A program made the position numbers and the translations under genes. Source: Halopseudomonas pelagia (lineage in GTDB: Bacteria > Pseudomonadota > Gammaproteobacteria > Pseudomonadales > Pseudomonadaceae). Taken from it: a stretch of DNA of 64,000 nucleotides. The first letter of the stretch is position 1. Every line of letters starts with the position of its first letter. This document shows positions 2,737-33,366 of the stretch, one piece after another. The stretch spans positions 310,001-374,000 of the forward strand of contig NZ_CP033116.1 of assembly GCF_009497895.1 (NCBI RefSeq), given 5' to 3'. The notes below the pieces were generated by a model. It was not told where the DNA came from. It saw nothing but the letters and a program-made list of their open reading frames with translations, and made no database searches.

Positions 2737-2752
2737 CTGACCACTTAGTCCA
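2737..2752. promoter_or_regulatory. RutR-like operator, upstream copy
   Basis: The sequence CTGACCACTTAGTCCA fits the E. coli RutR consensus TTGACCA-N2-TGGTCAA at 11 of 14 defined positions. Its centre lies about 65 bp upstream of the predicted start of the sigma-54 promoter at 2783, and 75 bp from the second operator. Confidence 0.6.
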
Positions 2753-2782
2753 TTTAAAAAATATTTAACGTTTCAGCTTATG

Positions 2783-2798
2783 TGGCAAGCAAATTGCT
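2783..2798 (+). promoter_or_regulatory. Sigma-54 promoter for the nucleoside ABC operon
   Basis: TGGCAA-N5-TTGCT matches the RpoN -24/-12 consensus TGGCAC-N5-TTGCW with one mismatch and exact GG-to-GC spacing. The predicted transcription start, about 12 bp downstream, falls at the edge of the operator at 2812. Confidence 0.65.
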
Positions 2799-2811
2799 CA
2801 TTGGTTAAATG

Positions 2812-2827
2812 TTGATTATTTGGTCAG
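2812..2827. promoter_or_regulatory. RutR-like operator at the predicted +1
   Basis: TTGATTATTTGGTCAG is a TGA..TCA dyad sharing the TGGTCA half of the RutR consensus. It covers the predicted start of transcription from the sigma-54 element at 2783, a position suited to repression. The same variant recurs at 11980 and 29324. Confidence 0.65.
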
Positions 2828-2864
2828 TTTATTACACCTACGTTATTACACGCCGGGGATCGCA

Positions 2865-4421
2865 ATGCTAGCGGCTGAACGCCTGAAACTGCAGAACATC
2901 GTCAAGCAATACCCCGGCTGCCGGGCGAATGACGGTGTCCAACTGACGGTCAACGCCGGCGAAATACATGCGTTGCTGGGTGAAAATGGCGCTGGCAAAA
3001 GCACTCTGATGAAGATCATCTATGGCGTGATCCAGCCGGACGAGGGCTCTCTTACCTGGAACGGACAGCCACTGCTATTGCAGGGTCCGGCGCATGCGCG
3101 TGAGCTGGGTATCGGCATGGTATTCCAGCATTTTTCGCTATTTGAAACCCTGACTGTAGCCGAGAACATCGCGCTTAGCCTGCCCGCCGCCGAAGCGCGC
3201 AACCGCAGCCGTCTGGATACCCGCATTCGCGAAGTCTCGGCCCATTACGGCATGAGCCTCGACCCGCGCCGCTACGTCAATACCCTGTCCATTGGCGAGC
3301 GCCAGCGGGTCGAGATCGTGCGCTGCCTGATTCAGGAAAGCTCGCTGCTGATTCTTGATGAACCCACTTCCGTGCTTACCCCGCAGGAAGTCGAAGTGCT
3401 GTTCCGCACACTGCGGCAGCTGTCCAGCGAGGGCTGCAGCATTCTGTTTATCAGCCATAAATTGCAGGAAGTACGCGATCTGTGCCACCGCGCCACGGTC
3501 TTGCGCCAGGGCCGGGTCACCGGCGAGTGCCGGCCCGCCGAGGTCTCTACCGACGATATCGCGCGCATGATGGTGGGCAATGATACGCCACTGTCCACTC
3601 AGGTTGCTCCGGCAGAACCGGGTGAGACTCTGCTGACGCTGAAAGATCTCAGCTACGCCAGCCGCGACCCCTTTGGCACCAGCCTGGGCAACATCAACCT
3701 GCAGCTGCGCGCCGGCGAAATTGTCGGCATTGCCGGGGTGGCGGGGAACGGTCAGGACGAACTGCTGCGCGCGCTCTCCGGTGAAGTGCTGGTCGCCGCC
3801 GACAGCTTGCAACTCGACGGCATGTCGATAGGCCGCCGGGGTGCGGCCCAGCGCCGCCGCCTGGGCGTCGCCGTGGTGCCCGAGGAGCGCCTGGGGCGTG
3901 GCGCGGTGCCGGCGATGTCGCTGACCGAAAATACTCTGCTGACCGCCTATGACCGCGGGTTGGTCAAGGGCGGCTTGCTCAAGGGCGGCAAGATCCGCGA
4001 GTACGCCACCCGCATACGCGAGCAGTTCGGAGTGCGCTGCAGCAGCATCGACAGCCCGGCGTCCAGCCTCTCCGGGGGTAACCTGCAGAAATTCATCATC
4101 GGCCGCGAAGCCTTGCAGCAACCACGCCTGCTGGTCGCCTCGCATCCGACCTGGGGTGTGGATGTGGGCTCGGCCGTGGCGATTCACGAGGCGCTGGTGG
4201 CCCTGCGTGACCAGGGCGCCGCCATCTTGTTGATCTCCGAAGACCTCGATGAGCTCTACCAACTATGCAGCCGCATGGGTGCGATCTGCAGCGGCCGCCT
4301 GTCGCCTTTGGTGCCGACCGCAGAACTGAGTATCGAAAAACTCGGCCAGTGGATGGCCGGTGACTTTCCAGCGGGCGCAGCCCAGTTTGATGACAAAGGG
4401 CCAACCCATGCTGTCGCTTGA
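2865..4421 (+). CDS. Nucleoside ABC transporter, duplicated ATPase (NupA/YufO/RbsA type)
   Basis: This cytoplasmic ATPase of 518 residues powers a BMP-type nucleoside importer. The first nucleotide-binding domain has Walker A GENGAGKST (residues 39-47), signature LSIGERQRVEI and Walker B LLILDEPTS. The second domain has the degenerate P-loop GVAGNGQDEL typical of this family and the signature SLSGGNLQKFIIGRE. I chose the ATG at 2865 because the family homology begins there; an upstream in-frame start at 2820 would lie inside the operator. It overlaps the first permease gene by 14 bp. No BMP-type binding protein belongs to this copy of the operon. Confidence 0.9.
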   Translation: MLAAERLKLQNIVKQYPGCRANDGVQLTVNAGEIHALLGENGAGKSTLMKIIYGVIQPDEGSLTWNGQPLLLQGPAHARELGIGMVFQHFSLFETLTVAENIALSLPAAEARNRSRLDTRIREVSAHYGMSLDPRRYVNTLSIGERQRVEIVRCLIQESSLLILDEPTSVLTPQEVEVLFRTLRQLSSEGCSILFISHKLQEVRDLCHRATVLRQGRVTGECRPAEVSTDDIARMMVGNDTPLSTQVAPAEPGETLLTLKDLSYASRDPFGTSLGNINLQLRAGEIVGIAGVAGNGQDELLRALSGEVLVAADSLQLDGMSIGRRGAAQRRRLGVAVVPEERLGRGAVPAMSLTENTLLTAYDRGLVKGGLLKGGKIREYATRIREQFGVRCSSIDSPASSLSGGNLQKFIIGREALQQPRLLVASHPTWGVDVGSAVAIHEALVALRDQGAAILLISEDLDELYQLCSRMGAICSGRLSPLVPTAELSIEKLGQWMAGDFPAGAAQFDDKGPTHAVA

Positions 4422-5496
4422 ACGCCGAGCTACCGACTCGCGGCTGATGCAGTGGACTTCACCACTGCTGGCCCTGGTGCTGACCGTGATTACCGCGCTG
4501 GGTCTGTTTATCGCGCTGGGCAAAGACCCCATTGAAGGCCTGACGTTTTTCTTTCTGATCCCCCTGAGCGATGCCCATGGCTGGGCCGAGCTGGGCCTGA
4601 AAATGGCGCCGCTGCTGCTCTGCGCCGCAGGCCTGACCATCTGCTATCGCGCAAAGCTGTGGAATATCGGTGCTGAAGGCCACTTTCTCATGGGCGCGCT
4701 CTGGGCCTCGGTAGTGGCGCTGCAACTGACCGAACACAGCGGCTTCTGGGTATTGCCTGCGGTGCTGCTGGCCGGGGCACTGGCCGGAGCACTATGGGCG
4801 TGGATTGCGGCGGTGCTGAAAACGCATTTTCACTGCAATGAAATTCTCACCACCATCATGCTCAACTACATCGCGCTGAATCTGCTGCTCTACACCGTGC
4901 ATGGCCCCCTAAAGGATCCGATGGGCTTCGGCTTTCCGCAGTCGGAAATGTTCGCCGCCGCAGCCCTGCTGCCCAAACTGATTCCCGACACGCGCTTGCA
5001 TATCGGTCTGCTGTTCGCGCTGCTGGCGGCCGTAGCCGTCGGCGTGCTCTTCACCCGCACCTTCGTCGGCTTTCAACTCAAGGTGTTGGGCCAGGATAAC
5101 CGCGCGGCCGCCTTTGCCGGCTTCGGTGCGCGGCGCCTGACCTGGCTGGCCTTTTTGCTGGCCGGGGCGATGGCCGGCCTGGCCGGCGCCTCGGAAGTCA
5201 GCGGGCCAATCGGCCAGTTGGTACCCCAGGTCTCTCCCGGCTATGGCTACACCGCAATCATCGTCGTGTTCCTCGGGCGCATGCAGGCGCTGGGTATTGT
5301 GCTGGCCAGTGCGCTGCTGGCGCTGACCTTCATGGGCGGCGAGATGCTGCAGATTGCGATGAACCTGCCCAGGGCCATCACCGGTTTGTTCCAGGGCCTG
5401 CTGCTGTTCTACCTGCTCACCTGTGACGCCTTTATCCATTACCGCCTGCGGCTGCGTCGGCCGCTGACTGCTGTTACGACCGGGCAGGAGGCCTGA
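4408..5496 (+). CDS. Nucleoside ABC transporter permease 1 (NupB/YufP type)
   Basis: This membrane permease of about 362 residues belongs to the BPD_transp_2 family that partners RbsA/NupA-like ATPases. Hydrophobic segments run through the whole chain. Family signatures include GLTICYRAKLWNIGAEGHF, NEILTTIMLNYIALNLLLY and the glycine-rich AGAMAGLAGASEVSGPIGQL. The start at 4408 follows AAAGGG and overlaps the ATPase gene; an earlier ATG at 4390 lacks a ribosome site. It should form a heteromeric channel with the next gene. Confidence 0.88.
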   Translation: MLSLERRATDSRLMQWTSPLLALVLTVITALGLFIALGKDPIEGLTFFFLIPLSDAHGWAELGLKMAPLLLCAAGLTICYRAKLWNIGAEGHFLMGALWASVVALQLTEHSGFWVLPAVLLAGALAGALWAWIAAVLKTHFHCNEILTTIMLNYIALNLLLYTVHGPLKDPMGFGFPQSEMFAAAALLPKLIPDTRLHIGLLFALLAAVAVGVLFTRTFVGFQLKVLGQDNRAAAFAGFGARRLTWLAFLLAGAMAGLAGASEVSGPIGQLVPQVSPGYGYTAIIVVFLGRMQALGIVLASALLALTFMGGEMLQIAMNLPRAITGLFQGLLLFYLLTCDAFIHYRLRLRRPLTAVTTGQEA

Positions 5497-5497
5497 T

Positions 5498-6424
5498 ATG
5501 GATACGTTGCTGATCACCAACATACTCGCCGCCACCGTTATCGCCGGCACACCGCTACTGCTGGTGGCGCTGGGTGAACTGGTCTGCGAGCGCTCCGGCG
5601 TGCTCAACCTGGGTCAGGAAGGCATGATGCTGATGGGCGCGGTCATGGGCTTTATCGCCGCGGTGACCAGCGGCAGCCTCGCCGTCGGAGTACTCGCGGC
5701 CATTACTGCCGGCATCCTGATGTCGATGCTGTTCGCACTGATGGCCGTCACCCTGGCGGCCAATCAATACGCGGCCGGTCTGGCACTGACCATCTTCGGT
5801 ACCGGTTTGAGCGCCTTTATCGGTAGCGGTCATGTCGGCAGCTCAATCTCCGGCTTCCCCAAAATTGCCATTCCCTACCTGTCCGACATTCCGGTGATCG
5901 GCACCGTGCTGTTCCGCCAGGACTTGCTGGTCTACCTGTCGCTGCTGCTGTTCGTCCTGGTGTTCGTCTTCCTGCGCTACAGCCGGGGAGGGCTGATCGT
6001 ACGGGCCGTAGGCGAATCGCCAGAGGCAGCCAATGCCAATGGCATGCGGGTGCTGGCAGTGCGCTACATGGCGGTGGCCTTCGGCGGCGGCATGGCCGGC
6101 CTTGCCGGTGCCTACCTGTCACTGGTGTATACGCCCATGTGGACCGAAAACATGACCTCCGGGCGCGGCTGGATTGCCCTGGCGCTGGTGGTCTTTGCTA
6201 CCTGGAAACCCGAGCGCGTGCTGCTCGGCGCCTATCTGTTCGGTGCCGCGAGCATCCTGCATCTGGTTCTCCAGGGTCTTGGCTGGCGCAGCTCGACCGA
6301 GTTGCTGGCGATGCTGCCTTACCTGGTGACCATCGTCGTGCTGGTGTTGCTGTCCTGGAATCCCACCCGGACGCAACTGAATACCCCTTTATCAATCGGC
6401 CAACCTTATAGGCCGAGCAAGTGA
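5498..6424 (+). CDS. Nucleoside ABC transporter permease 2 (NupC/YufQ type)
   Basis: This second BPD_transp_2 permease has 308 residues and follows the previous stop by 1 bp, with a strong GCAGGAGG ribosome site. The signature LVALGELVCERSGVLNLGQE near the N-terminus and the conserved block GGGMAGLAGAYLSLVYTPMW mark it as the smaller permease of BMP/Nup transporters. Together with the preceding ATPase and permease it forms the membrane part of a purine or pyrimidine nucleoside importer. The binding protein may be the BMP protein at 23717. Confidence 0.88.
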   Translation: MDTLLITNILAATVIAGTPLLLVALGELVCERSGVLNLGQEGMMLMGAVMGFIAAVTSGSLAVGVLAAITAGILMSMLFALMAVTLAANQYAAGLALTIFGTGLSAFIGSGHVGSSISGFPKIAIPYLSDIPVIGTVLFRQDLLVYLSLLLFVLVFVFLRYSRGGLIVRAVGESPEAANANGMRVLAVRYMAVAFGGGMAGLAGAYLSLVYTPMWTENMTSGRGWIALALVVFATWKPERVLLGAYLFGAASILHLVLQGLGWRSSTELLAMLPYLVTIVVLVLLSWNPTRTQLNTPLSIGQPYRPSK

Positions 6425-6470: not shown

Positions 6471-7229
6471 ATGACCATGACAACTATGCGCAAAACCCTT
6501 ATGGCAGTCTGCATTGCAGCCTCCTTCGCTCCTGCAGCCCATGCCGAGAAGTTCTTCTCTGATTCAAGCATCTCTGTGCTCTACAGCGATGATTACCAGG
6601 CTTTCGGCCCACAGAAGCGCACTGATACATTCTTTACCTTCGAGAACGCCACTGGACACAACTGGGGCAGCACCTTCTTCTTCTTCGACCGTAACCAGGG
6701 CCACGGTAAAGATGCTGACTCCGACGACCTGTACGGTGAGTTTGCGCCGAATGTCAGCCTCGGCTGGCTGACCGGCAATGACCTGAGCTACGGCCTGATC
6801 AAGGACGTCACCCTGTCCGGCCAGTACGAAATGGGCGGCGGCACTAACGTCAACAACCTGATGCTGGGTATGGGTCTGGATTGGAATATCCCCGGCCTGC
6901 AATACTTTGGCACCCGCGTTTACCACGTCAACAACAGCGAAACCGACAACGACTACCAGCTGACTGTGGTCTGGGGCGCGCCTATGGAATTCGGTCCTAA
7001 CCGTGTTCTGTTCGACGGTTACATCGACTGGTCTTCCGCCGCTGACGACCACAAGTCCGACTTCCACTTCAACCCACAGTTGAAACTGGATATCGGTAAC
7101 TACTTCGGCAGCCCGAGCGTGTTGTATGCCGGTATCGAGTACTCCTACTGGAACAACAAGTACGGCCTGAACGATACCGTCATGGACACCGAGAGCGCTG
7201 TAAGCGCCCTGGTTAAATTTCACTTTTGA
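6471..7229 (+). CDS. Tsx-like nucleoside-specific outer-membrane channel
   Basis: This 252-residue outer-membrane beta barrel of the Tsx/OmpK family passes nucleosides into the periplasm. It has a signal peptide ending near AHA-EKFF, alternating aromatic beta strands, and the terminal phenylalanine of FHF expected of a barrel protein. The ribosome site AGGA at 6465 fits the ATG at 6477 better than that at 6471, so the mature start may be two residues later. It closes the importer operon, linking outer-membrane entry to the inner-membrane ABC system upstream. Confidence 0.85.
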   Translation: MTMTTMRKTLMAVCIAASFAPAAHAEKFFSDSSISVLYSDDYQAFGPQKRTDTFFTFENATGHNWGSTFFFFDRNQGHGKDADSDDLYGEFAPNVSLGWLTGNDLSYGLIKDVTLSGQYEMGGGTNVNNLMLGMGLDWNIPGLQYFGTRVYHVNNSETDNDYQLTVVWGAPMEFGPNRVLFDGYIDWSSAADDHKSDFHFNPQLKLDIGNYFGSPSVLYAGIEYSYWNNKYGLNDTVMDTESAVSALVKFHF

Positions 7230-7237: not shown

Positions 7238-7263
7238 GGGAGTTCGGCTAATGTCGAACTCCC
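7238..7263 (+). promoter_or_regulatory. Perfect 9-bp hairpin spanning the TetR start codon
   Basis: GGGAGTTCG (7238-7246) and CGAACTCCC (7255-7263) form a perfect stem with an 8-nt loop containing the ATG at 7251. The ribosome site GGGAG is inside the stem. It lies 8 bp after the tsx stop without a T-run. It could attenuate tsx read-through or hide the regulator's start. Confidence 0.5.
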
Positions 7264-7937
7264 TACCGCGTAGAAGTGACGACAACCGCATGACCACCAA
7301 CACCCGAGCAAAGACCTACCGTCCCGGTCGCATTCGCGAGCGCAACCGGGAAATCATTCTGGCTGCGGCGGAGCAGGAATTCGCTCAGCACGGTTTTCGC
7401 GGCGCCACGATCCAGGATATTGCCGAACGCGCAGAGCTGCCGAAATCCAATGTGCTGTATTACTTCAGCAACAAGAAGGAAATCTACGGTGCGATGTTTG
7501 ACGACATTCTGTCGCGCTGGAATGCGGTGTTTACCACCGTCTCGCCGGAGGATGATCCGGCCACGGCACTGACGGCATTCATTCGCACCAAGGTCGAGCT
7601 GTCCCGGACTCACCCGCTGGCTTCACGGCTGTTCGCCATGGAGATCATCCAGGGCGCGCCCTTTCTGATGGACCATTTGCGCGGCACCATGCGTGACTGG
7701 GTCAGGGGCCGAGCGATGGTCATCCAGCAATGGATAGACGAGGGGCGCATGGCCAAGGTGGATCCGGTGCAGTTGATCTTTCTGATCTGGTCATCAACCC
7801 AGCATTACGCCGACTTCCAGGTGCAGATTCTGATGGTGGAAAACAAGGCCGAATATGAAAAGCAGGACTTCGATCATGCGGCCGAGTTTCTTACCGGGGT
7901 GATTCTGCGTGGTTGCGGTCTGGACGTTCCCACATGA
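7251..7937 (+). CDS. TetR-family regulator, RutR-like paralogue 1
   Basis: This 228-residue repressor is of the RutR/YcdC type. An N-terminal helix-turn-helix is visible (GATIQDIAERAELPKSNVLYYFSNK, here split as GATIQDIAERAEL and PKSNVLYYF). The C-terminal ligand-binding domain carries the RutR-type blocks HPLASRLFAMEIIQGAP and WSSTQHYADFQVQI. It is clearly paralogous to the regulator at 21294, with parallel C-terminal motifs. The first start at 7251 has a GGGAG ribosome site within a hairpin; the ATG at 7290 is an alternative. It probably binds one of the palindrome classes in this region, with a nucleobase as ligand (inference). Confidence 0.85.
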   Translation: MSNSLPRRSDDNRMTTNTRAKTYRPGRIRERNREIILAAAEQEFAQHGFRGATIQDIAERAELPKSNVLYYFSNKKEIYGAMFDDILSRWNAVFTTVSPEDDPATALTAFIRTKVELSRTHPLASRLFAMEIIQGAPFLMDHLRGTMRDWVRGRAMVIQQWIDEGRMAKVDPVQLIFLIWSSTQHYADFQVQILMVENKAEYEKQDFDHAAEFLTGVILRGCGLDVPT

Positions 7938-8018: not shown

Positions 8019-9365
8019 TTGAACAGCTTCGCCATTCGCAATGCCGCACTCTTTACCGTGGACCCGCATAACCGGGTCATCGCCAATGGCACCCTTATCG
8101 TCGAAGACGGGCGCATCAGTGCATTGGGCGAGGCCGGTGAAATAACCATACCGGACGGTTACCCGATTATCGATGCCGAGGGGCACGCTTTGCTGCCCGG
8201 CCTGATTGACTGCCACTCGCACTCCAGCCTGATGCGTGGCGTCACCGAAAATATGCAGCTGATGGACTGGCTGCCGTACTACCAGCTTGAGCACCGCGCA
8301 CTCACCGAAGAATATGCTTACCACTCCGCACGGCTGTGTTACCTGGAAGCACTGAAAAGCGGCACCACCTGCGTCATGGACATGTATCGCTTCATGCATC
8401 GTTGCGCCGACGCCGCCGGCGAGATCGGCCTGCGCGTGAATCTCGCGCCTTATGTGGCCGATGCGCCGGGCAAGGACTTCTTCGCCACCCGTGCCGAGAA
8501 TCGCGCGCTGATTCATAGCCATCACGGCAGCCAGAACGGACGCATTCAGGTCTGGATGGGCCTGGAGCACCTGTTTTACTGCACCGCCGATGCCTACGCC
8601 GAAGCCTTGCAGTGCCAGCGCGATTACGGCGTGGGCATCCATACCCACGCCTGCGAGCAGCGCGAGGAAGACCAGGCCGTCGAACAGCATTTTGGCCGAC
8701 GCTCGATCGCCCAACTGGACCACTACGGCATTCTCGGTGAGCGCACCCTGCTGGCGCATTGCGTCTGGTTGAATGACGATGAAATCAAACGCCTGGCCGA
8801 CGCTGGCACTGCCATTGCCCACTGTCCGATCAGCAACGCCAAACTGGCCAGCGGCGTAGCACGGGTACCGGAGATGCTCGCGGCCGGCCTGACTGTCGGG
8901 CTGGGCACCGATGGCCCGGTGTGCAACAACAGCCTGAGCCTGTTCGAGGAGATGAAATTCTCCTCGTTGATTCAGAAAGCCACCCGCCTGGACGCCACCG
9001 TGCTGCCGGCCGAGCAGATGCTGCGCATGGCAACCATCAACGGCGCCCGCGCATTGGGTCTGGACCGCGACATCGGCTCGCTGGAAGTGGGCAAGCGCGC
9101 CGACCTGTTGTTACTGGATCTGAAGATGCCGAACATGACCCCGGCCGAGATCAATCCCCAGGGCGGCAACGTGTTATGGAACCTGGTGTTCGCTGCCGGT
9201 AGCCAGAATGTCGCCAGTGTCTGGGTCGATGGCCGGCAACTGATCGCCAATGGCCGTGCTACCCAGGTCAGTGAAGCCGAGGTGCTGAGCCAGGCACAGG
9301 CGCAAGGTCTGCAGTTGTTTCAGCAATGCCGCGATATCGCCCACTTACGTACCCGCATGCTCTAG
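8019..9365 (+). CDS. Amidohydrolase, cytosine/MTA/SAH deaminase-like (TRZ/ATZ family)
   Basis: This 448-residue metal-dependent hydrolase should deaminate a nucleobase or nucleoside-like ring. Metal ligands are visible as HSH (66-68), H210 in IHTHACEQ, H247 in LLAHCVW and D298 in GLGTDGP. Within the family E213 is the usual catalytic acid. The start is a TTG preceded by AGAGG with 8-bp spacing; the nearby ATG at 7999 opens only a four-codon frame that stops at 8011. It lies directly upstream of an Fe(II) oxygenase (15-bp gap), so the two probably act on the same compound. Exact substrate is unknown. Confidence 0.82.
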   Translation: MNSFAIRNAALFTVDPHNRVIANGTLIVEDGRISALGEAGEITIPDGYPIIDAEGHALLPGLIDCHSHSSLMRGVTENMQLMDWLPYYQLEHRALTEEYAYHSARLCYLEALKSGTTCVMDMYRFMHRCADAAGEIGLRVNLAPYVADAPGKDFFATRAENRALIHSHHGSQNGRIQVWMGLEHLFYCTADAYAEALQCQRDYGVGIHTHACEQREEDQAVEQHFGRRSIAQLDHYGILGERTLLAHCVWLNDDEIKRLADAGTAIAHCPISNAKLASGVARVPEMLAAGLTVGLGTDGPVCNNSLSLFEEMKFSSLIQKATRLDATVLPAEQMLRMATINGARALGLDRDIGSLEVGKRADLLLLDLKMPNMTPAEINPQGGNVLWNLVFAAGSQNVASVWVDGRQLIANGRATQVSEAEVLSQAQAQGLQLFQQCRDIAHLRTRML

Positions 9366-9380: not shown

Positions 9381-10331
9381 ATGAAGACCCTACCCATCAT
9401 TTCCGTCGCCGGCCTGCGCAGCCAGAATCCCGAGGAGCGTGCCCAGGTGGCACGCCAACTGGGTATTGCCTGCCGCGAAGTGGGCTTTTTCTATGTAATC
9501 GATCACGGCATTGACGCCGAAAGTATCCGGGCGGCGTTTGACAATGCCCAACGCTTTTTCGCGCTGCCATTGGCTGACAAGCAGCCGCTTTCGATTAAGC
9601 TGTCACCGCATAACCGTGGCTACGTCGCCATGGCCGATGAAAAGCTCAACCCCGCTTCCGGCGCCGATATGAAAGAAGCCTTCAATATTGGCACTGATTT
9701 TCCGGCGGACCACCCCGACGTGGTCGCCGGCAAGCCGTTCCGGGGCGTGAATTTCTGGCCTGAGGTGCCTGGCTGGCGTGAAGATATGCTTGGTTATTTT
9801 GACGCCTGCCTGAACCTGGGCCGGCTGATTCACCGCGGGTTCAGCATTGACCTGGGGCTGGCGGAAGACTTCTTCGACCCGCATCTGACAGCGCCCATCG
9901 CAACGCTGCGCATGCTGCGCTATCCGGCCAGCGCCGGCCAATCAGACCGCGAGGATGGCGCCGCCGGGGCACACACTGATTACGGCAATCTGACCCTGCT
10001 GGCGACCGACAAGGTGGCGGGGCTGCAAGTTGCCAACCGCCAGGGAGAATGGATCGAAGCGCCACACGTACCCGGTGCATTTGTCTGCAATATCGGCGAC
10101 TGCCTGATGCGTTGGAGTAACGATACCTATGTCTCGACACCGCACCGCGTGCGTCCGCCGGAACAGGAGCGTTATTCCATTGCGTTCTTTCTCGAAGTGA
10201 ACCCGGATTCGATAGTCGACCCGCGCGATATTCTGCCTGCCGAGCAACCCAAGTACCCACCCATCATCTGTTCGGACTACCTGGCTTACCGGCTTAACGC
10301 CACTTACGAGTACCGAACGCAAAAGCAATAA
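9381..10331 (+). CDS. Fe(II)/2-oxoglutarate oxygenase, isopenicillin N synthase type (copy 1)
   Basis: This 316-residue double-stranded beta-helix oxygenase has the facial triad H198-x-D200 (AHTDYGN) and H255 (STPHRV). R264-Y-S266 is the usual 2-oxoglutarate carboxylate clamp. The N-terminal IPNS-type domain (LPIISVAGL, REVGFFYVIDHGI) is intact. Fungal thymine-7-hydroxylase belongs to this superfamily, so hydroxylation or demethylation of a nucleobase is plausible. That is inference from neighbours, not from active-site residues. It follows a deaminase-like gene with GAGGAG ahead of the ATG. Confidence 0.88.
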   Translation: MKTLPIISVAGLRSQNPEERAQVARQLGIACREVGFFYVIDHGIDAESIRAAFDNAQRFFALPLADKQPLSIKLSPHNRGYVAMADEKLNPASGADMKEAFNIGTDFPADHPDVVAGKPFRGVNFWPEVPGWREDMLGYFDACLNLGRLIHRGFSIDLGLAEDFFDPHLTAPIATLRMLRYPASAGQSDREDGAAGAHTDYGNLTLLATDKVAGLQVANRQGEWIEAPHVPGAFVCNIGDCLMRWSNDTYVSTPHRVRPPEQERYSIAFFLEVNPDSIVDPRDILPAEQPKYPPIICSDYLAYRLNATYEYRTQKQ

Positions 10332-12104: not shown

Positions 12105-13046
12105 ATGAGCGAGCAAGCACTATCCATTCCGATTATCGACTTTGGCCCCTTTATCCAGGGCGACCCGACTGCCAGGCAACAGGTCGCTGCGCAGATGCGC
12201 GAAGCCAGCAGCCAGTGGGGGTTTTTCTATCTGGCCAACTGCGGTATGCCGCAAGGCAGTGTCAGTGAGGCTTTTCAGGCATCAAAGGACTTCTTTGCCC
12301 TGCCGGATGAGATCAAACAATCGGTTGCTTGGCAAAACGCCCAGAGCAACAGAGGCTATGTAGGTGTGCGCCGCGAGCGCCTGGACCCGAGCAAGCCGGG
12401 TGATCTGAAAGAGGCCTTCAACGCCGCCCCGGAAGATCGCGACGCCAGCGCGGCGAGGAATCTCTGGCCTGCGGATCAGCCCGAATTCCGCGAGCACGTC
12501 GAGACGTTTCTGACAGATTGCATTACCACGGCAGACCGCATTCTGGAGACCTTTGCCGTTGCGCTTGACCAACCGGACAATTTTTTCGTCAACGCACATG
12601 ATCTGCACCATCACACTCTGCGGCTTCTGCACTACCCACCATTGCCAGAAGGCTTTGTCGCCGAGCAGGGGGAAAGTCGCGCCGGTGCGCATACCGATTA
12701 CGGCAGCATCACCTTGCTGTTCCAGGACGACGCCGGCGGCCTCGAGGTCTGCACCCGGCAGGGTGAATGGGTTCAGGCCACGCCGATTCCGGGCACTGTG
12801 GTGATCAACACCGGTGACCTGATGCACCGCTGGACCAACCACGTGTTCTGTTCAACACCGCATCGGGTCAACGTCCCCAAGGCCGCGATGCACCGCCACC
12901 GCTACTCGATCGCGTTTTTCTGCCACCCGAACAAGAACGCCAATATCGAATGTATCGACAGCTGCACCGACGCCAGCAACCCGGTGCGCTACCCACCGAT
13001 TTCCGCAGGCGAACACCTGCTGCAACGCCTGAATGCCACCTACTGA
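12105..13046 (+). CDS. Fe(II)/2-oxoglutarate oxygenase, isopenicillin N synthase type (copy 2)
   Basis: This 313-residue oxygenase has the metal triad H196-x-D198 (AHTDYGS) and H253 (STPHRV). R266-Y-S268 follows as the co-substrate clamp. The N-terminal domain (IPIIDFGPF, WGFFYLANCG) is complete. It opens an operon with an NMT1/THI5-like binding protein (26-bp gap), so the substrate may be the ligand that protein captures. The operon has its own sigma-54 promoter and RutR-like operator. A role on a pyrimidine-like compound is inferred from context only. Confidence 0.88.
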   Translation: MSEQALSIPIIDFGPFIQGDPTARQQVAAQMREASSQWGFFYLANCGMPQGSVSEAFQASKDFFALPDEIKQSVAWQNAQSNRGYVGVRRERLDPSKPGDLKEAFNAAPEDRDASAARNLWPADQPEFREHVETFLTDCITTADRILETFAVALDQPDNFFVNAHDLHHHTLRLLHYPPLPEGFVAEQGESRAGAHTDYGSITLLFQDDAGGLEVCTRQGEWVQATPIPGTVVINTGDLMHRWTNHVFCSTPHRVNVPKAAMHRHRYSIAFFCHPNKNANIECIDSCTDASNPVRYPPISAGEHLLQRLNATY

Positions 13047-13071
13047 AAACATCAACCCAGGAGTTTCAACC

Positions 13072-14061
13072 ATGCACAACAAGAGCCGACTCGCCCTTGC
13101 CCTGGCACTCGGATTGGGCCTTACCAGCCTGACCGCCAGTGCCGACGAACTGACCCCCGTGACCGTTATCACCACCTGGTACGCCCAGGCTGAACACGGC
13201 GGACTCTATGCCGCCAAGGCCATGGGCATCTACGAAGAACACGGCCTGGACGTAACCATTCGCATGGGCGGCCCGCAGGTCAATAACGTGCAGTTGCTGA
13301 TGGGCGGCAAGAGTGATTTCAGCATGGGTTACGCGCTGCAATCGCTGAATGCGGTCCAGCAGAATATTCCGTTGGTCACCGTTGCCGCGTTCTTCCAGAA
13401 GGATCCACAATCCTTGGTCGCGCATAGCGGCGTCGGCAACGATTCGCTGGAAGATCTGAAGGGCAAGGGCCTGCGTATTCCAACTGCTGGCCGCGTCGCC
13501 TATTGGCCGTGGCTGAAAGCCGAGTACGGCTTTACCGACGATCAACTGCGCCCCTACGACTACAGCTTTGGCCCCTTCATCGCCGACGAACAAGCCGTGC
13601 AACAGGGCTATGTCACCAATGATGGCTACTTCCTCGCCAAGGAAGGTGTTGAAGCCCAAAGCCTGCTGCTGGCCGACTATGGCTGGAATGCCTATTCAGC
13701 TACGCTGGACACCACGCAAAAGCTGATTGACGAGGATCCCGAACTGGTACAAAACATGGTCGCCGCCACGGCCAAGGGTTGGGCCGCCTACTTTGAGGAT
13801 CCGGCACCGGCCAACGCGCTGATCAAGGAGGACAACCCGGAGATGGCAGATGATCTGCTGGCCTACAGCAAGGACAAGATGCAGGAAGAAGGCATGCTGC
13901 TCTCGGGTGACGCCGCCGATGGTCAGTACGGCATCATGACCGCTGAGCGCTGGGAGCAGTTCTTCAAGGACATGGTAAAGGCTGGCACCTTGCCGGAAGA
14001 TCTGGACTGGGAAAAAGCCTTTGATCTGCGCTTTGTTGACGCGCTGTACACAGAGGAATAA
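13072..14061 (+). CDS. NMT1/THI5-like ABC substrate-binding protein (orphan copy)
   Basis: This 329-residue periplasmic binding protein has a signal peptide ending near SASA-DELT. The family block TTWYAQAEHGGLYAAKAMG begins the mature protein, and MGGPQVNNVQLLMGGKSDFS follows. The family includes binding proteins for pyrimidine precursors. It is a close paralogue of the protein at 29368 but has no ATPase or permease beside it, so it probably feeds the ABC pair at 30480-32161. The start at 13072 follows CCAGGAG; an upstream in-frame ATG at 13033 overlaps oxygenase 2 and precedes the signal peptide. Confidence 0.88.
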   Translation: MHNKSRLALALALGLGLTSLTASADELTPVTVITTWYAQAEHGGLYAAKAMGIYEEHGLDVTIRMGGPQVNNVQLLMGGKSDFSMGYALQSLNAVQQNIPLVTVAAFFQKDPQSLVAHSGVGNDSLEDLKGKGLRIPTAGRVAYWPWLKAEYGFTDDQLRPYDYSFGPFIADEQAVQQGYVTNDGYFLAKEGVEAQSLLLADYGWNAYSATLDTTQKLIDEDPELVQNMVAATAKGWAAYFEDPAPANALIKEDNPEMADDLLAYSKDKMQEEGMLLSGDAADGQYGIMTAERWEQFFKDMVKAGTLPEDLDWEKAFDLRFVDALYTEE

Positions 14062-17407: not shown

Positions 17408-17418
17408 GGCTGGCTCCT

Positions 17419-21141: not shown

Positions 21142-21194
21142 TGTTTTCTTTATTGTTTTTAATCAATGACTTGCTATATTTTTATGCTTTAGAT

Positions 21195-21210
21195 CAGACC
21201 AAATAGTCCG
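21195..21210. promoter_or_regulatory. RutR-like operator between rutA and rutR
   Basis: CAGACCAAATAGTCCG keeps GACCA-N2-TAGTC of the RutR dyad. It lies between the divergent rutA and rutR genes, 7 bp from an NtrC-like site. Confidence 0.6.
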
Positions 21211-21217
21211 AATTAGA

Positions 21218-21232
21218 GCACTTGGTTTGTGC
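21218..21232. promoter_or_regulatory. NtrC-like binding site
   Basis: GCAC-TTGGTTT-GTGC matches the GCAC-N7-GTGC NtrC enhancer dyad exactly. It is upstream of both rutA and rutR and sits 7 bp from the RutR-like operator. Confidence 0.6.
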
Positions 21233-21293
21233 ACGCTGGTCCGAATCAGGGCATATTTCAATTATTGAGTTGCAGGGCAGGTCAGGGGGTAGA

Positions 21294-22022
21294 ATGCGCA
21301 CACCAAGGAATGAGGCCGACAACCCAGTGAGCAAACAGATACAGCGTCCCGGCGTACCCGCCAAGAAGCCCAAGGCCCTCAGCCGGGTGCCCAGCGAAGC
21401 GACGTTGAAACGGCGCCAGCGGCAGATGGAAACCAAACGCAGCGCGATCATGGAAGCCGCCCTGGATATTTTCTCGCGTTATGGTTTGCATGGCACAAGC
21501 CTGGATCAGGTCGCCAGCCAGGCGGATGTATCCAAAACCAACCTGCTCTATTACTTCACCTCCAAAGAGGAGCTGTACATCAATGTACTGCGACAGTTAA
21601 TGGAGGTGTGGCTGCGACCTCTCCAGGCGTTCAGCGTCGAGCAGGATCCGGTCGAAGCCATCGGCGACTATCTCCAGGTCAAACTGGAGTTATCGCGCGA
21701 CCACCCAGCCGAGTCGCGGCTGTTCTGTCTCGAAGTCATCCAGGGCGCCCCATTGCTGCTCAATGAGTTGCGCTCATCGCTGCGCGACATCGTTGAGTCC
21801 AAGGTATCGGTGATCAATGCCTGGGTCGCGGAAGGCAAGCTGGCTCCCATTGAGCCGCACCACCTGATCTTTTCGCTCTGGGCTACCACCCAGCATTATG
21901 CTGATTTCCGTGTGCAGGTAGAGGCGGTATCCGGGCGCACGCTGGATGATCCGGAATTCTTCGCCGAAACCCTGGCCAATCTCAAGCTATTGGTATTGCA
22001 GGGTATCTGTCCGCGCTCCTGA
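21294..22022 (+). CDS. rutR: TetR-family regulator RutR (paralogue 2)
   Basis: This 242-residue TetR protein is divergent from rutA, the usual rutR position. The helix-turn-helix is in GLHGTSLDQVASQADVSKT and NLLYYFTSKEELY. The C-terminal ligand domain has HPAESRLFCLEVIQGAPLLL and WATTQHYADFRVQVEA, as in RutR, whose ligands are uracil and thymine. The start at 21294 follows AGGGGG; an earlier in-frame ATG lies at 21222. Compared with the paralogue at 7251 it has a longer basic N-terminal tail. Confidence 0.88.
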   Translation: MRTPRNEADNPVSKQIQRPGVPAKKPKALSRVPSEATLKRRQRQMETKRSAIMEAALDIFSRYGLHGTSLDQVASQADVSKTNLLYYFTSKEELYINVLRQLMEVWLRPLQAFSVEQDPVEAIGDYLQVKLELSRDHPAESRLFCLEVIQGAPLLLNELRSSLRDIVESKVSVINAWVAEGKLAPIEPHHLIFSLWATTQHYADFRVQVEAVSGRTLDDPEFFAETLANLKLLVLQGICPRS

Positions 22023-22080: not shown

Positions 22081-22096
22081 CAGACCATTTGATCAA
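22081..22096. promoter_or_regulatory. RutR-like operator
   Basis: CAGACCATTTGATCAA matches the RutR dyad at 11 of 14 positions, including GACCA and the closing TCAA. Confidence 0.65.
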
Positions 22097-22149
22097 ATTT
22101 AAGCGATCGCAAATCCTCAACCCGCTGTAATTCAATAAAAAAGTGTTAT

Positions 22150-22165
22150 TGGCATAGTTGCTGCA
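22150..22165 (+). promoter_or_regulatory. Sigma-54 promoter of oxygenase 4 operon
   Basis: TGGCAT-AGTTG-CTGCA keeps GG and GC at exact spacing; the -12 box is CTGC rather than TTGC. Confidence 0.5.
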
Positions 22166-29250: not shown

Positions 29251-29266
29251 CTGACCAAATGATCAG
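29251..29266. promoter_or_regulatory. RutR-like operator, upstream copy
   Basis: CTGACCAAATGATCAG fits the RutR dyad at 11 of 14 positions. It is centred 73 bp from the second operator at 29324 and about 65 bp upstream of the predicted start. A degenerate NtrC dyad GCTG-N7-GTGC lies at 29227-29241. Confidence 0.68.
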
Positions 29267-29367: not shown

Positions 29368-30390
29368 ATGCGTTATAGAAAAAAGCCGGCGGCTGCCGCC
29401 AACAAGAGTACCCTCTCGGCCGTCGCTGGCCTGCTGCTGGCCGGCATCGCTGCCGCCCCTTCGGCAAGTGCCCAGGAACTTGATCGCGTCACCTTTGGCA
29501 CCAACTGGTATGCCCAGGCCGAACATGGCGGTTTTTACCAGGCTCAGGCCACCGGGATTTATGAAAAGTACGGTCTGAACGTATCCATCCAGATGGGCGG
29601 CCCGCAGGTTAACGGCATGCAGTTGCTGGTGGCCGGGCGTCGTGATTTCTCCATGGGCTACCCCATCGGCAACATCAAGGCGCGCGAAGAAGGCCTGCCG
29701 GTCAAGACCGTCGCTGCTTCGTTTCAGGGCGACCCGCAAGCGCTGATCGCTCACCCGAACGTCACCTCCATCGAGCAGATCAAGGAAGAGAACCTGCCGG
29801 TTTATATTGCGTCCTTTGCCCATACCACTTTCTGGCCCTGGCTGAAGGCCGAATACGGCTTTACTGACGATATGACCCGCCCGTACACCTTCAGTGTTGC
29901 GCCGTTCATGGCCGACCCCAAGATCGTCCAGCAGGGTTACCTGTCATCCGAGCCCTACGCCATCAAGCAGGGCGGTATCGAGCCCTCGGTGTTCCTGCTG
30001 GCTGATTACGGCTATCCGGCCTACGCCACCACGATCGAAACCACTGACAAGATGATCGAGGAAAACCCCGATCTGGTGCGCCGCTTTGTGCAGGCGAGCA
30101 TGGAAGGCTGGGCCAGCTACCTTGCTGATCCGGCACCGGGTAATGAACTGATCAAGAAAGAAAATCCGCAGATGACCGATGAGCAGATCGCCTACGGCAT
30201 CGAGAAGATGAAGGAGCACGGCCTGGTCACCGGTGGTGATGCCGAGACCGGCGGTATTGGCGTGATGACTGATGAACGCTGGAAGGCTCTGCACGATTTC
30301 ATGCTCAAAGCTGAGCTGATCTCTTCCGACCTGGATATCCATGATGCTTACACCCTGGAATTCCTGCCTGAAGAGCCGGTGCTCCAGTAA
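29368..30390 (+). CDS. NMT1/THI5-like ABC substrate-binding protein
   Basis: This 340-residue periplasmic protein has a signal peptide ending ASA-QELDR. The block TNWYAQAEHGGFYQAQATG and MGGPQVNGMQLL match the orphan copy at 13072 closely. It leads an operon with an SsuB-like ATPase and SsuC-like permease. Family members bind pyrimidine precursors and other small heterocycles; the neighbourhood suggests a nucleobase, but the ligand is not established. Confidence 0.88.
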   Translation: MRYRKKPAAAANKSTLSAVAGLLLAGIAAAPSASAQELDRVTFGTNWYAQAEHGGFYQAQATGIYEKYGLNVSIQMGGPQVNGMQLLVAGRRDFSMGYPIGNIKAREEGLPVKTVAASFQGDPQALIAHPNVTSIEQIKEENLPVYIASFAHTTFWPWLKAEYGFTDDMTRPYTFSVAPFMADPKIVQQGYLSSEPYAIKQGGIEPSVFLLADYGYPAYATTIETTDKMIEENPDLVRRFVQASMEGWASYLADPAPGNELIKKENPQMTDEQIAYGIEKMKEHGLVTGGDAETGGIGVMTDERWKALHDFMLKAELISSDLDIHDAYTLEFLPEEPVLQ

Positions 30391-30479
30391 CGGCCACGCT
30401 CAATCCTTCCTGTCTTCAGCCTGAGTCTATCTATCGAGTGGGTGAGCCTGCGCCAGCAGGTCACCCCAGGAGCCACAGC

Positions 30480-31358
30480 ATGAATGTTTCACCCATCACA
30501 CCGGGTAACTCCGCTACGACGCCGGACCCGGCCTCCAGCACGCCAGCCGATGCTACCCAGACGAGCCGCCCGGTACTGCAGGTCAGCGACGTCAACAAGA
30601 TTTACGCCAACGGCACCGTGGCGCTCAAGGGCGCTGACCTGACCGTGCGGCAGGGCGAGTTTGTCAGCCTGCTTGGGCCTTCTGGCTGCGGCAAAAGCAC
30701 TTTGCTGCGGATCATGGCCGGGCTCGGCGATGTAACCAGCGGCACGGTGAACTGGTGGGAGCATGACTACAACGTGATCGGCGACAAGGGTCGCAAGCTG
30801 GCATTCGTGTTCCAGAACGCCACGCTGATGCCCTGGGCACGGGTGCGCAAGAATGTGCGCCTGCCACTGGACCTGGAGGGTGACGCCAGTACCGACATTG
30901 AAGGCCGCATCGACCGCGCTCTCGAAATGGTCGGCCTCACCGGTTTTGACAATGCCTTCCCGCGCGAGCTGTCTGGCGGCATGCAGATGCGTGCCTCCAT
31001 CGCCCGCGCGATGATCACCGAGCCCAACCTGCTGCTGATGGACGAGCCCTTCGGCGCACTCGACGAGATGACCCGCAACAAGCTCAACGACGACGTTCTC
31101 AAGCTCTGGCAAAAGAACGGCTGGACCATCGTCTTTGTCACCCACAGCGTGTACGAGGCCGTGTACCTGTCCAGCCGCGTAGTAGTGATGGCAGCTCGAC
31201 CCGGGCGCATTGTCGAGGATATCCGTATCGACGAACCCTATCCGCGCAGTGCTGATTTTCGCGTGTCGTCCGAATTCGCCGGCTATTGCCGCCAGGTTTC
31301 CAAGGCACTCGAGCGTGCTAGCGCCATGGGCGCTTCAGCGTCACAGGAGGCTCACTGA
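30480..31358 (+). CDS. ABC transporter ATPase, SsuB/TauB type
   Basis: This 292-residue single-domain ATPase has Walker A GPSGCGKST, signature LSGGMQMRASIARA and Walker B LLLMDEPFGALDE. About 35 residues of low-complexity N-terminal sequence precede the domain. The ATG at 30480 follows AGGAGCC; an earlier frame from 30438 has no support. Its stop overlaps the permease start by 1 bp. It powers uptake with the 29368 binding protein. Confidence 0.9.
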   Translation: MNVSPITPGNSATTPDPASSTPADATQTSRPVLQVSDVNKIYANGTVALKGADLTVRQGEFVSLLGPSGCGKSTLLRIMAGLGDVTSGTVNWWEHDYNVIGDKGRKLAFVFQNATLMPWARVRKNVRLPLDLEGDASTDIEGRIDRALEMVGLTGFDNAFPRELSGGMQMRASIARAMITEPNLLLMDEPFGALDEMTRNKLNDDVLKLWQKNGWTIVFVTHSVYEAVYLSSRVVVMAARPGRIVEDIRIDEPYPRSADFRVSSEFAGYCRQVSKALERASAMGASASQEAH

Positions 31359-32161
31359 TGAGCACGCCACTGATTCAGAACGAGAACTTCGTCAAGATCG
31401 CCGCGCCTCTGGCCGTGGGCCTGCTCTTTCTGCTGCTCTGGGAAGCGGCCGTGGTCGCCATGGAAGTGCCGCGCTATATTCTCCCAGGCCCTTCGGCCAT
31501 CTTCGATTCGCTGGTTACCGATTGGCGTGTACTGCTGGCGGCACTGATGATCACGCTGAAAGTCACCTTCATGGCCTTTGCCATCTCCGTGATACTCGGC
31601 GTGGCCGCATCGCTGCTGTTCGTGCAGAGCAAATGGATCGAGTTGAGCCTGTTCCCGTACGCAGTACTGATGCAGGTAACACCGGTGGTGGCCATCGCGC
31701 CGCTGATCATTATCTGGATTGACGACACCACCTGGGCGCTGACCGTGTGCGCGGTGATCATCGCCATCTTCCCGATCATCTCCAACACCACTCTGGGCCT
31801 GCGCAGCGTGGATCCGAATCTGCTGAGCATGTTTCGCATGTACCGCAGCAGCCGCTGGCAGGAGCTGATTCGCCTGCGCATCCCCGGCGCACTGCCGTAT
31901 TTCTTCGGCGGGCTGCGCATCAGCAGCGGCCTGGCGCTGATTGGCGCGGTGGTCGCGGAGTTTGTCGCCGGTACCGGCGGGGCCAAGGCCGGGCTGGCCT
32001 ACATGATCCTGCAGTCGGGCTATAACCTGCAGATTCCACGCATGTTTGCCGCACTGGCACTGATCACCCTGACCGGCATCGCGCTGTTCGCGCTGATGGT
32101 CTGGCTATCAGACCGGGCCCTACGCAACTGGCACGAAAGCGCACTGAAAGTGGAGCATTGA
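31358..32161 (+). CDS. ABC transporter permease, SsuC/TauC type
   Basis: This 267-residue BPD_transp_1 permease has six predicted membrane segments. The EAA-loop region is seen in FRMYRSSRWQELIRLRIPGA. VVAEFVAGTGGAKAGLAYMI follows. It shares the operon with a 30480 ATPase and a 29368 binding protein and completes a three-part importer. Confidence 0.9.
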   Translation: MSTPLIQNENFVKIAAPLAVGLLFLLLWEAAVVAMEVPRYILPGPSAIFDSLVTDWRVLLAALMITLKVTFMAFAISVILGVAASLLFVQSKWIELSLFPYAVLMQVTPVVAIAPLIIIWIDDTTWALTVCAVIIAIFPIISNTTLGLRSVDPNLLSMFRMYRSSRWQELIRLRIPGALPYFFGGLRISSGLALIGAVVAEFVAGTGGAKAGLAYMILQSGYNLQIPRMFAALALITLTGIALFALMVWLSDRALRNWHESALKVEH

Positions 32162-32163
32162 GC

Positions 32164-33126
32164 ATGCGCAAGGCCGGTCCTGGGCCAGCTAACTCGCAGT
32201 ACGCCTGGGGTCTTGGCTATCTGCTGCTGGCAGCTACTGCGCTGGGCTGGGGGCTGAACTTTCCGATCCTCAAGCTGGGTCTGGAAAACAGCCCGCCGCT
32301 GCTGTTCACCAGTCTGCGCATGGCACTGGGCACGCTGACGATGTTTATTGTCGCCGCGGCCATGGGCATATTGCGCTGGCCAGCGCGGGGCGATTGGCCG
32401 GTGCTGTTCTCGGTCGGCGTGCTGCAGAACATGGCATTTATCTCGCTGGTGACCATGGGATTGCAGTATCTGCCGGCAGGCCGCGCTGCGATTCTGGCTT
32501 ACACAACACCCATCTGGGTAGTACCGGCAGCGGCGCTGTTTCTGGGCGAGCGCTTTACCTTGCCCCGAGCCATCGGCGTGGGCCTGGGTATGGCCGGGCT
32601 GATGGTCATACTCAACCCGCTATCCCTGACCTGGGATAACCCTGATGTGCTGCTCGGCGCCGGATTGATCATGCTCGGTACGCTGGTCTGGACCGCCGGA
32701 CTGATTCACGTTCGCCGTCACCATTGGCACGGCGAAGTGCTCTCGCTGATTCCCTGGCAACTGCTGATGTCGGTACTGGTACTCACGCCCATCGCGCTGC
32801 TGGTAGAAGACCCGAGTGAGATTATCTGGGACACCACTTTTCTCTGGCCACTGTTGTTCAGCGGCACCGTCGCCTCCGGGCTTTGTGTGGCCGCTCAGGT
32901 GGCTGCGATCAGATCCCTGCCGGCCGTCAGCCTGTCGCTCAGCTCCGCTTCGGTGCCCGCGGTGGGCCTGCTGTCCGCCGCCTGGTTTCTGGGAGAACGG
33001 CCCAGCCAGACCGATCTCATCGGCTTTGTACTGATCGCAGCGGGCATCCTCGTCGTCGGGCTGGCGGATCGTCGTCAAGCCGCTCGCACCCGGGCAGCAA
33101 CTGCTGGCGAATCGGCCTCGTCCTGA
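32164..33126 (+). CDS. EamA/DMT-family transporter
   Basis: This 320-residue membrane protein has about ten hydrophobic segments in two EamA repeats. The first includes ALGWGLNFPILKLGLENSP and YTTPIWVVPAAALFLGER. The second ends with LSSASVPAVGLLSAAWFLGE. The ATG at 32164 is 2 bp after the permease stop, with GTGGAG upstream. It may export a metabolite of the pathway; no substrate can be named. Confidence 0.83.
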   Translation: MRKAGPGPANSQYAWGLGYLLLAATALGWGLNFPILKLGLENSPPLLFTSLRMALGTLTMFIVAAAMGILRWPARGDWPVLFSVGVLQNMAFISLVTMGLQYLPAGRAAILAYTTPIWVVPAAALFLGERFTLPRAIGVGLGMAGLMVILNPLSLTWDNPDVLLGAGLIMLGTLVWTAGLIHVRRHHWHGEVLSLIPWQLLMSVLVLTPIALLVEDPSEIIWDTTFLWPLLFSGTVASGLCVAAQVAAIRSLPAVSLSLSSASVPAVGLLSAAWFLGERPSQTDLIGFVLIAAGILVVGLADRRQAARTRAATAGESASS

Positions 33127-33167: not shown

Positions 33168-33182
33168 GCACTTCACCCGTGC
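33168..33182. promoter_or_regulatory. NtrC-like binding site
   Basis: GCAC-TTCACCC-GTGC is an exact GCAC-N7-GTGC dyad. Confidence 0.6.
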
Positions 33183-33197
33183 GTCAACCACCAGCCT

Positions 33198-33212
33198 GCA
33201 CCATTTTTGCGC
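33198..33212. promoter_or_regulatory. NtrC-like binding site, second of a pair
   Basis: GCAC-N7-GCGC deviates at one base from the dyad. Its centre is 30 bp from the site at 33168, about three helical turns, as in classical NtrC enhancers. Confidence 0.45.
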
Positions 33213-33254
33213 ACGACCTTGCCTTCCGGGCCCCAGCAAAACGGCGCCTGGGCA

Positions 33255-33270
33255 TGGCAACGTGCTTGCG
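33255..33270 (+). promoter_or_regulatory. Sigma-54 promoter, upstream candidate
   Basis: TGGCAA-CGTGC-TTGCG has the -24 and -12 boxes at exact spacing. Confidence 0.5.
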
Positions 33271-33319
33271 GCCCCTGACTTGCAGGCTTTTTGCCCAGAG
33301 CGACGCCGGTTGCGAAAGA

Positions 33320-33335
33320 TGGCCCACATTTTGCT
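33320..33335 (+). promoter_or_regulatory. Sigma-54 promoter, downstream candidate
   Basis: TGGCCC-ACATT-TTGCT has exact spacing, and the operator at 33351 begins 16 bp after its -12 GC, the same layout as at 2783, 11955 and 29296. Confidence 0.58.
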
Positions 33336-33350
33336 CCTTCAAGTAAAAAC

Positions 33351-33366
33351 CTGCCTAACTGGTCAG
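33351..33366. promoter_or_regulatory. RutR-like operator at the predicted +1
   Basis: CTGCCTAACTGGTCAG has one good TGGTCAG half. GGTCA at 33361 also pairs with TGACC at 33373-33377 as an overlapping dyad. Confidence 0.55.

Follow-up and report, generated by a model that had tools for sequence, protein, structure and literature searches.

Background

The closest described system is the rutABCDEFG operon of Escherichia coli, whose rutA gene has a known sigma-54 promoter (PMC4591121, PMC8743547) and whose expression under nitrogen limitation is NtrC-dependent and repressed by RutR (PMC10891134); parts of the same three papers describe the release of this RutR-family repressor by uracil. Since control of rut by RutR together with NtrC is known, AND-type logic is not in itself new. 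The present work concerns a 64-kb stretch of Halopseudomonas pelagia DNA (contig NZ_CP033116.1, positions 310,001 to 374,000; hereafter the window, in whose numbering all coordinates are given), in which four predicted sigma-54 promoters, P1 to P4, carry an apparent RutR-type operator at or just past the predicted transcription start, and a fifth, the predicted promoter of an xdhA-like gene, shares bases with another such operator. With a probability of roughly 0.7 we consider that RutR2, a RutR paralogue encoded in the P1 gene run, represses these five promoters and forms an AND gate with an enhancer-binding protein.

Pseudomonas hutU offers another likeness, as sections of PMC8871633 describe a substrate-specific repressor (HutC) combined with enhancer-driven transcription (NtrC/CbrB), and binding sequences shared by HutC, CbrB and NtrC in the hutCD-hutU region; it differs in that HutC belongs to the GntR family and responds to a different substrate. 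PA1504 of P. aeruginosa is also counted among the closest systems, placed there by its description in part of the source and not by sequence. RutR regulons were reconstructed in the RegPrecise work for 68 genomes from 13 groups of Proteobacteria, with taxon-specific changes of the motif, according to portions of PMC5343134. The term sigma54 is absent from the main text of that paper, and some of the sites described here may already be among its predicted regulons.

The promoters of the window resemble that of E. coli rutA in joining a sigma-54 promoter (TGGCATCCGCTTTGCA in E. coli) with a 16-bp operator of the same class. At E. coli rutA the distance from the start of the operator, TTGACCGTTTAGTCCA, to the -24 element downstream of it is 80 bp, and a search of 270 bp with up to four mismatches gave no second one; here, by contrast, operators are placed at +1 or overlap a -24 element, their probable regulator being a paralogue acting on purine-type genes. 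The rutA gene of the window itself is like its E. coli counterpart, with an operator-like sequence at 21195 (3 mismatches) upstream of a minus-strand promoter-like site at 21141. Within the literature searched, the +1 operator on several promoters, the RutR2 paralogue and the fusion of an operator with a -24 element appear to be new; the last was not found in titles or abstract openings of open-access papers, targeted search included. The evidence points to a conserved regulatory architecture, of which a preliminary description of the window, made from the sequence alone, was right in outline, the enhancer, the ligand and the regulator being predicted assignments.

Results and discussion

Four predicted sigma-54 promoters with putative operators at their starts

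The preliminary description had reported composites of a sigma-54 promoter and a RutR-like operator at 2783, 11955, 29296 and 33320, and all four are present in the sequence. They lie on the plus strand and read TGGC-N7-TTGCT, with GG and GC 10 bp apart in the TGGC-N7-TTGCW context: P1 (2783-2798, TGGCAAGCAAATTGCT), P2 (11955-11970, TGGCACACCCCTTGCT), P3 (29296-29311, TGGCACGGTGCTTGCT) and P4 (33320-33335, TGGCCCACATTTTGCT). When the sigma-54-like sites of the window were ranked by consensus score, P1, P2, P3 and P4 came 4th, 2nd, 1st and 6th, respectively, among the matches listed. After gaps of 13, 9, 12 and 15 bp they are followed on the same strand by 16-mers ending in TGGTCAG, namely the operator O2 of P1 (2812-2827, TTGATTATTTGGTCAG) and the operators of P2 (11980-11995, CTGATTATCTGGTCAG), P3 (29324-29339, TTGATTAACTGGTCAG) and P4 (33351-33366, CTGCCTAACTGGTCAG, with 1 mismatch to the consensus searched below). 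The RutR operator class is a 16-bp dyad, TTGACCA-N2-TGGTCAA, and the operators of P1-P4 fit it, the left half being degenerate at O2.

With +1 placed by convention 12 nucleotides past the C of the -12 GC, the predicted starts are 2809 (P1), 11981 (P2), 29322 (P3) and 33346 (P4), and the operators would cover about +4 to +19, -1 to +15, +3 to +18 and +6 to +21. Their reported location on the predicted +1 holds to within a few bases of where they begin; the position is described more exactly as roughly the first 20 predicted transcribed bases.

Occurrence in the genome, the genus and the order

Patterns were searched in the whole genome (4,550,643 bases, 4.55 Mb) and in a set of 37 genomes of the genus, with the reversed pattern as the control. 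TGGC-N7-TTGCW gave 234 matches genome-wide and 58 in the control. The operator consensus YTGAYYANNTGGTCAR matched five times with 0 mismatches (control, 1); four of these matches are inside the window, at three of the reported operators and at 29251, and the fifth is outside it, within an open frame of 264 codons. With one mismatch allowed there were 64 strand matches against 31 in the control, so that weak operator matches are largely noise. Among the matches listed, 18 of the 20 out-of-window loci with up to one mismatch sit within open frames of at least 164 codons, a rule which also catches the reported sites 2812 and 33351 (in frames from an upstream TTG).

The composite pattern, TGGC-N7-TTGC-N(7-21)-TGNYYANNTGGTCA, behaved differently from such single operators. 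It matched four times in the genome, always at the sites already reported in the window, and 34 times in 17 of the 37 genus genomes, compared with 0 matches of the reversed pattern, which bears out genome-wide the co-occurrence of the two elements that had been claimed. A chance origin of the composites was rejected on this control. For one of the 34 (genome G010, contig 56) no counterpart among the P1-P4 promoter types was recognised. A looser version of the pattern, applied to 390 genomes of the order, found 24 matches in 20 genomes (reversed, 4), and on visual inspection 5 of the 20 matches outside the own genome were recognised as promoters of the P1 type or of the amidohydrolase. From this outcome the system looks patchy and not order-wide; the predicted composite architecture is conserved beyond the genus.

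A putative operator fused to the predicted promoter of xdhA

P1 has a second operator, O1 (2737-2752, plus strand, CTGACCACTTAGTCCA), 75 bp from O2. On the minus strand the same region holds a predicted sigma-54 promoter (2728-2743, TGGTCAG-CTTT-TTGCA), with TGGT where P1-P4 have TGGC, and the -24 element of this promoter coincides with one of the two halves of O1. Its predicted start is near 2717. It faces a divergent xdhA-like gene (1156-2625, minus strand) of the xanthine dehydrogenase small subunit type (Pfam Fer2, Fer2_2, FAD_binding_5 and CO_deh_flav_C), and P1 is one half of a back-to-back pair with this predicted promoter. P3 likewise has an upstream operator (29251-29266, plus strand, CTGACCAAATGATCAG), at a distance of 73 bp from the operator that follows the promoter. 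The two upstream operators and the divergent promoter were absent from the text of the preliminary description, where 2737 figured as the start coordinate.

Similarity to RutR2 was used to fetch 80 named loci. Together with the window they contain 36 regions in which both operators flank a sigma-54 promoter, and the reverse, xdhA-facing element is found in 35 of these 36 P1-type regions. The O1-O2 spacing is 75 bp in 21 regions, 78 bp in six, 76 bp in five, 74 bp in two and 82 and 83 bp in one each, i.e. 74-78 bp in 34 regions and 82-83 bp in 2. In Thalassolituus (L123) the left half of O1 is close to perfect for a RutR-type dyad.

As the 36 regions had been picked for possessing both operators, the fused element was recounted over those 61 loci that contained the N-terminus of xdhA and sufficient sequence ahead of it, and was sought within 350 bp. 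TGG[TC]CA[AG]-N4-[TC]TGC was present upstream of xdhA in 47 of the 61, a figure that, the loci having been fetched by RutR2 similarity, is silent on xdhA genes with no relative of RutR2 close by. The left operator half had at most 2 mismatches out of 7 in 46 of the 47 and 3 in the remaining one. In 360-bp stretches drawn at random from these loci the right-half element occurred in 1.4 % of cases, a background that is not a p-value since the loci are related, and in 0.9 % when a left half with up to 3 mismatches was also demanded, so this second criterion adds little alone. The families represented (named as in the protein tree) are Pseudomonadaceae, Marinobacteraceae, Oceanospirillaceae, Cellvibrionaceae and Microbulbiferaceae. 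Within the element TTGC is almost invariant and the preceding four bases are variable; a test of the -12 half by shuffling gave 22 of 23 flanks with relatedness ignored, the flanks having been hand-picked from the 36 regions with identical and near-identical ones omitted.

A footprint of the region was obtained from 20 P1 loci aligned gap-free, taken from the 21 with 75-bp spacing (L095, with a 12-bp gap, was omitted). The mean pairwise identity reached 1.00 in the reverse TTGCA, 0.95 in the sigma-54 16-mer, 0.89 in O2 and 0.84 in O1, and fell to 0.51 in the spacer between O1 and the promoter, 0.59 in the 13-bp gap, 0.48 before the reverse element and 0.42 in the 45 bp after O2. We are slightly inclined to regard the xdhA promoter as a dual-code element, in which a half-site of a TetR-family protein is at the same time the -24 box of sigma-54 (TGGYCAR) and which is kept in at least five mostly marine gammaproteobacterial families. 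Acting also through the +1 operator at a distance of about 75 bp, one repressor would then switch a back-to-back pair by two steps, exclusion of the polymerase on one side and a block after its loading on the other.

RutR2, a second RutR-family protein

At the outset a TetR repressor was proposed to act on an operator described as RutR-like; this fits the dyads of the RutR class and the RutR-family gene in the first operon, but the window encodes two proteins of the family and not one. RutR2 (7251-7937, plus strand; PF08362 and TetR_N) is a TetR protein with a YcdC/RutR C-terminal domain and belongs to the P1 gene run, and RutR1 (21222-22022, plus strand; PF08362) is the canonical type beside rutA and rutB. 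RutR2 falls below the cut-offs for RutR proper, with 195.4 bits for TIGR03613 (cut-off 368) and 172.7 bits for PRK15008 (cut-off 230); RutR1 passes the latter with 281.4 bits and misses the former with 333.2. Identity to E. coli RutR is 55 % for RutR1 and 38 % for RutR2. In a tree of 28 proteins, for which the program issued a long-branch warning, E. coli RutR and RutR1 fall together (100/98), and RutR2 clusters (97/94) with 12 proteins of Halopseudomonas, Marinobacter, Thalassolituus, Cellvibrionaceae, Microbulbifer and others. On these data RutR2 is a paralogue of RutR, distinct from the canonical RutR1. The gene order xdhA / ABC (ATP-binding cassette) genes / permeases / Tsx / RutR2 is kept from Halopseudomonas to Thalassolituus. 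Two RutR2 copies were noticed in Marinobacter salarius (L100, L112), each with an xdhA/P1 divergent region.

RutR2 is probably the regulator of the operators. Its orthologues (at least 79 % identity) occur in 16 of the 37 genus genomes, and the composite is present in 15 of these 16 compared with 2 of the 21 without RutR2 (Fisher p 2e-7, relatedness ignored). In the one genome of the former group that lacks it, G032, P1 is present on the same contig (L092) with one operator base changed.

According to part of PMC10891134, the uracil bound by E. coli RutR is sandwiched by W77 and W167 in a stack, and is further contacted by Q171, Q179' and a water sitting on Y97. RutR2 keeps W77, W167, Q171 and Q179 and has F at position 97, where RutR1 keeps Y97. 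The ligand of RutR2 may accordingly contain a uracil-like ring, which might belong to a purine, for example xanthine.

Proposed mechanism and its alternatives

RutR2 made from the P1 operon would bind the 16-bp operators YTGNYYA-N2-TGGTCAR at P1-P4 and at the xdhA promoter. Sitting over the first ~20 transcribed bases of P1-P4, it would keep a polymerase-sigma-54 already parked at -24/-12 from forming the open complex or from escaping the promoter; at xdhA, where the operator half is the -24 element, repressor and sigma-54 are therefore proposed to compete for the same bases. A nucleobase-type ligand would bind RutR2 and cause it to leave the DNA. An enhancer-binding ATPase would still be required, most likely NtrC at P2-P4, and the outcome would be an AND gate answering to the enhancer signal and the presence of the base.

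The AND logic, as first proposed with nitrogen limitation for one of its inputs, fits a genome that encodes RpoN (535.6 bits, cut-off 277.35) and one NtrC above the NCBIfam cut-off, but the nitrogen signal itself is less well matched, for the candidate NtrC sites at P2-P4 were recognised post hoc and P1 has none. With TGCACY-N5-RGTGCA as the NtrC-site consensus, pairs of NtrC-like sites lie upstream of P2 (30 bp apart), P3 (31 bp) and P4 (30 bp), and their scores add up to 17, 18 and 20, respectively, out of 24; the pair of P4 (33167-33213, plus strand) consists of TGCACTTCACCCGTGCG and TGCACCATTTTTGCGCA. A summed score of at least 17 is reached by 1.9 % of random stretches of the window, and because the spacing had been noticed before it was tested the result is suggestive only. 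Among 25 distinct genus promoters a pair is found at 5 of 10 of the P4 type, 5 of 7 of the P2 type, 2 of 2 of the P3 type and 0 of 6 of the P1 type. An NtrC-like pair as the enhancer site of P1 was thus rejected.

Several observations weigh against control of the five promoters by RutR2 and NtrC. No NtrC-like pair was found at P1 by the consensus scan of the window. Two genomes, G018 and G035, have composites without RutR2 and without the P1 permease: they keep P2-type operons with operators (L221-L223), G018 also a P4-type one; the sole PF08362 match in G018 is a RutR1-type protein and in G035 (92 % complete) no PF08362 match was found. Their relevant contigs end near the block position seen in G010; the RutR2 block is either lost or unassembled, and RutR1 may serve the sites of G018. 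K52 and N54 of the recognition helix are common to RutR1 and RutR2, and RutR1 may bind the same sites. Since RutR2 similarity had served to collect the named loci, the presence of RutR2 nearby is not independent evidence. The fused element is absent at 14 of the 61 xdhA loci, among them four of Vibrio and those of Pseudomonas schmalbachii and Endozoicomonas, and the amidohydrolase has its own composite promoter in 2 of the 7 Marinobacter loci holding the gene.

The alternative that survives best, though we consider it doubtful, is that the operators are real and the other input of the gate is not nitrogen limitation, transcription being driven by another enhancer protein such as the carbon-responsive CbrB. 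The missing pair at P1, in the window and at all six distinct genus promoters of this type, speaks for it, as do several NtrC-type enhancer proteins that the genome encodes below the NtrC cut-off and the hutU precedent, driven in pseudomonads by CbrB or NtrC (parts of PMC8871633); the pairs 30-31 bp apart at P2-P4, set against their low background, and operons that appear to handle nitrogen-rich substrates argue for NtrC.

It is unlikely that RutR1, alone or with RutR2, is the protein which binds the operators, RutR2 being an auxiliary or regulating something else. The P2- and P4-type composites of G018, the shared recognition-helix residues and an operator class matching the E. coli site would be explained in this way, yet the composites of the genus track RutR2, RutR2 itself is within the P1 gene run, and the operator-like sequence at rutA (21195) is not at +1 but upstream of the promoter-like site there.

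Less probable still is a role of RutR2 as an activator or a loop-former acting through paired operators 73-83 bp apart in place of a simple steric block. The near-constant spacing of the P1 pair and the existence of another pair at P3 speak for it, but the spacing varies between clades (75, 78 and 82-83 bp), the upstream operator of P1 is explained by the divergent xdhA promoter, and no upstream operator of P2 or P4 was among the matches listed when 3 or fewer departures from the symmetric consensus were allowed. Looping by paired operators was on these grounds (clade-dependent spacing, O1 explained by the divergent promoter) rejected as the main mechanism. Finally, that the dyads are due to chance or are remnants of promoter duplication with no repressor role is hardly credible, for although P3 and P4 head similar, possibly paralogous transporter operons and weak operator matches are mostly noise, the reversed pattern is never matched, the elements form conserved islands between variable spacers, and the sites recur at P1-P4, xdhA and a separate amidohydrolase promoter in two Marinobacter. 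Repression by RutR2 at all five promoters remains the reading we prefer.

Genes of the operons and other sites

Operon limits were drawn from strand and spacing, and the genes of the P1 to P4 operons are on the plus strand. P1 is followed by an ABC ATPase and two BPD_transp_2 permeases by Pfam (2820-6424, likely first ATG 2865), a Tsx-type nucleoside channel (6471-7229, PF03502), RutR2, an amidohydrolase of the deaminase type (8019-9365, no NCBIfam match over the cut-off) and a 2-oxoglutarate/Fe(II) oxygenase of the isopenicillin N synthase (IPNS) type (9381-10331). The P2 operon (12105-14061) encodes another IPNS-type oxygenase (12105-13046) and an NMT1/THI5 binding protein; neither oxygenase had an NCBIfam match at 1e-30. 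P3 precedes genes for a binding protein, an ABC ATPase, a permease (with weak NCBIfam relatives only) and an EamA transporter (29368-33126), and P4 those for an NMT1/THI5 binding protein, an ABC ATPase, a permease and a cytidine-deaminase-superfamily protein (33408-36483). An 8-oxoguanine deaminase is encoded nearby (689 bits, cut-off 532). The operons do appear to serve nucleobase-type uptake, as had been proposed, but their predicted content (xdhA, 8-oxoguanine deaminase, a nucleoside-type transporter) points to purines at least as much as to pyrimidines.

A third IPNS-type 2-oxoglutarate/Fe(II) oxygenase is encoded in the nucleobase cluster (14869-15834), and in locus L116 the first one is present twice, the additional copy with a composite promoter of its own (16863). 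In two Marinobacter loci (L103, 14165; L114, 15166) the amidohydrolase of the P1 operon forms a unit by itself, with its own sigma-54 site followed 7 bp later by an operator. The rut cluster with RutR1 occupies 16886-22022; rutA and rutB exceed the NCBIfam cut-offs, rutF was recognised by Pfam and the others by position only.

Further sites were noted in the window. The third-best sigma-54-like site among the matches listed (15898-15913) precedes a flavin mononucleotide reductase gene and is followed by a 13-bp dyad, TTGACCTGATCAA, which does not fit the 16-bp operator. At 22081-22165, ahead of a gene at 22277, the operator-like CAGACCATTTGATCAA is placed 5' of the sigma-54-like TGGCATAGTTGCTGCA, an E. 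coli-like upstream layout. The operator-like CTGACTATTTGTTCAG (16709-16724) lies between convergent genes, and no adjacent sigma-54 site was noticed.

Conclusions

Sigma-54 promoters are usually described via their activators, and here one repressor is apparently wired into five of them at two conserved positions. The two positions, at +1 and on the -24 element, make action at different steps testable, with the polymerase loaded in one case and excluded in the other. For nucleobase scavenging in marine bacteria the work offers a predicted regulon with its putative regulator and ligand class.

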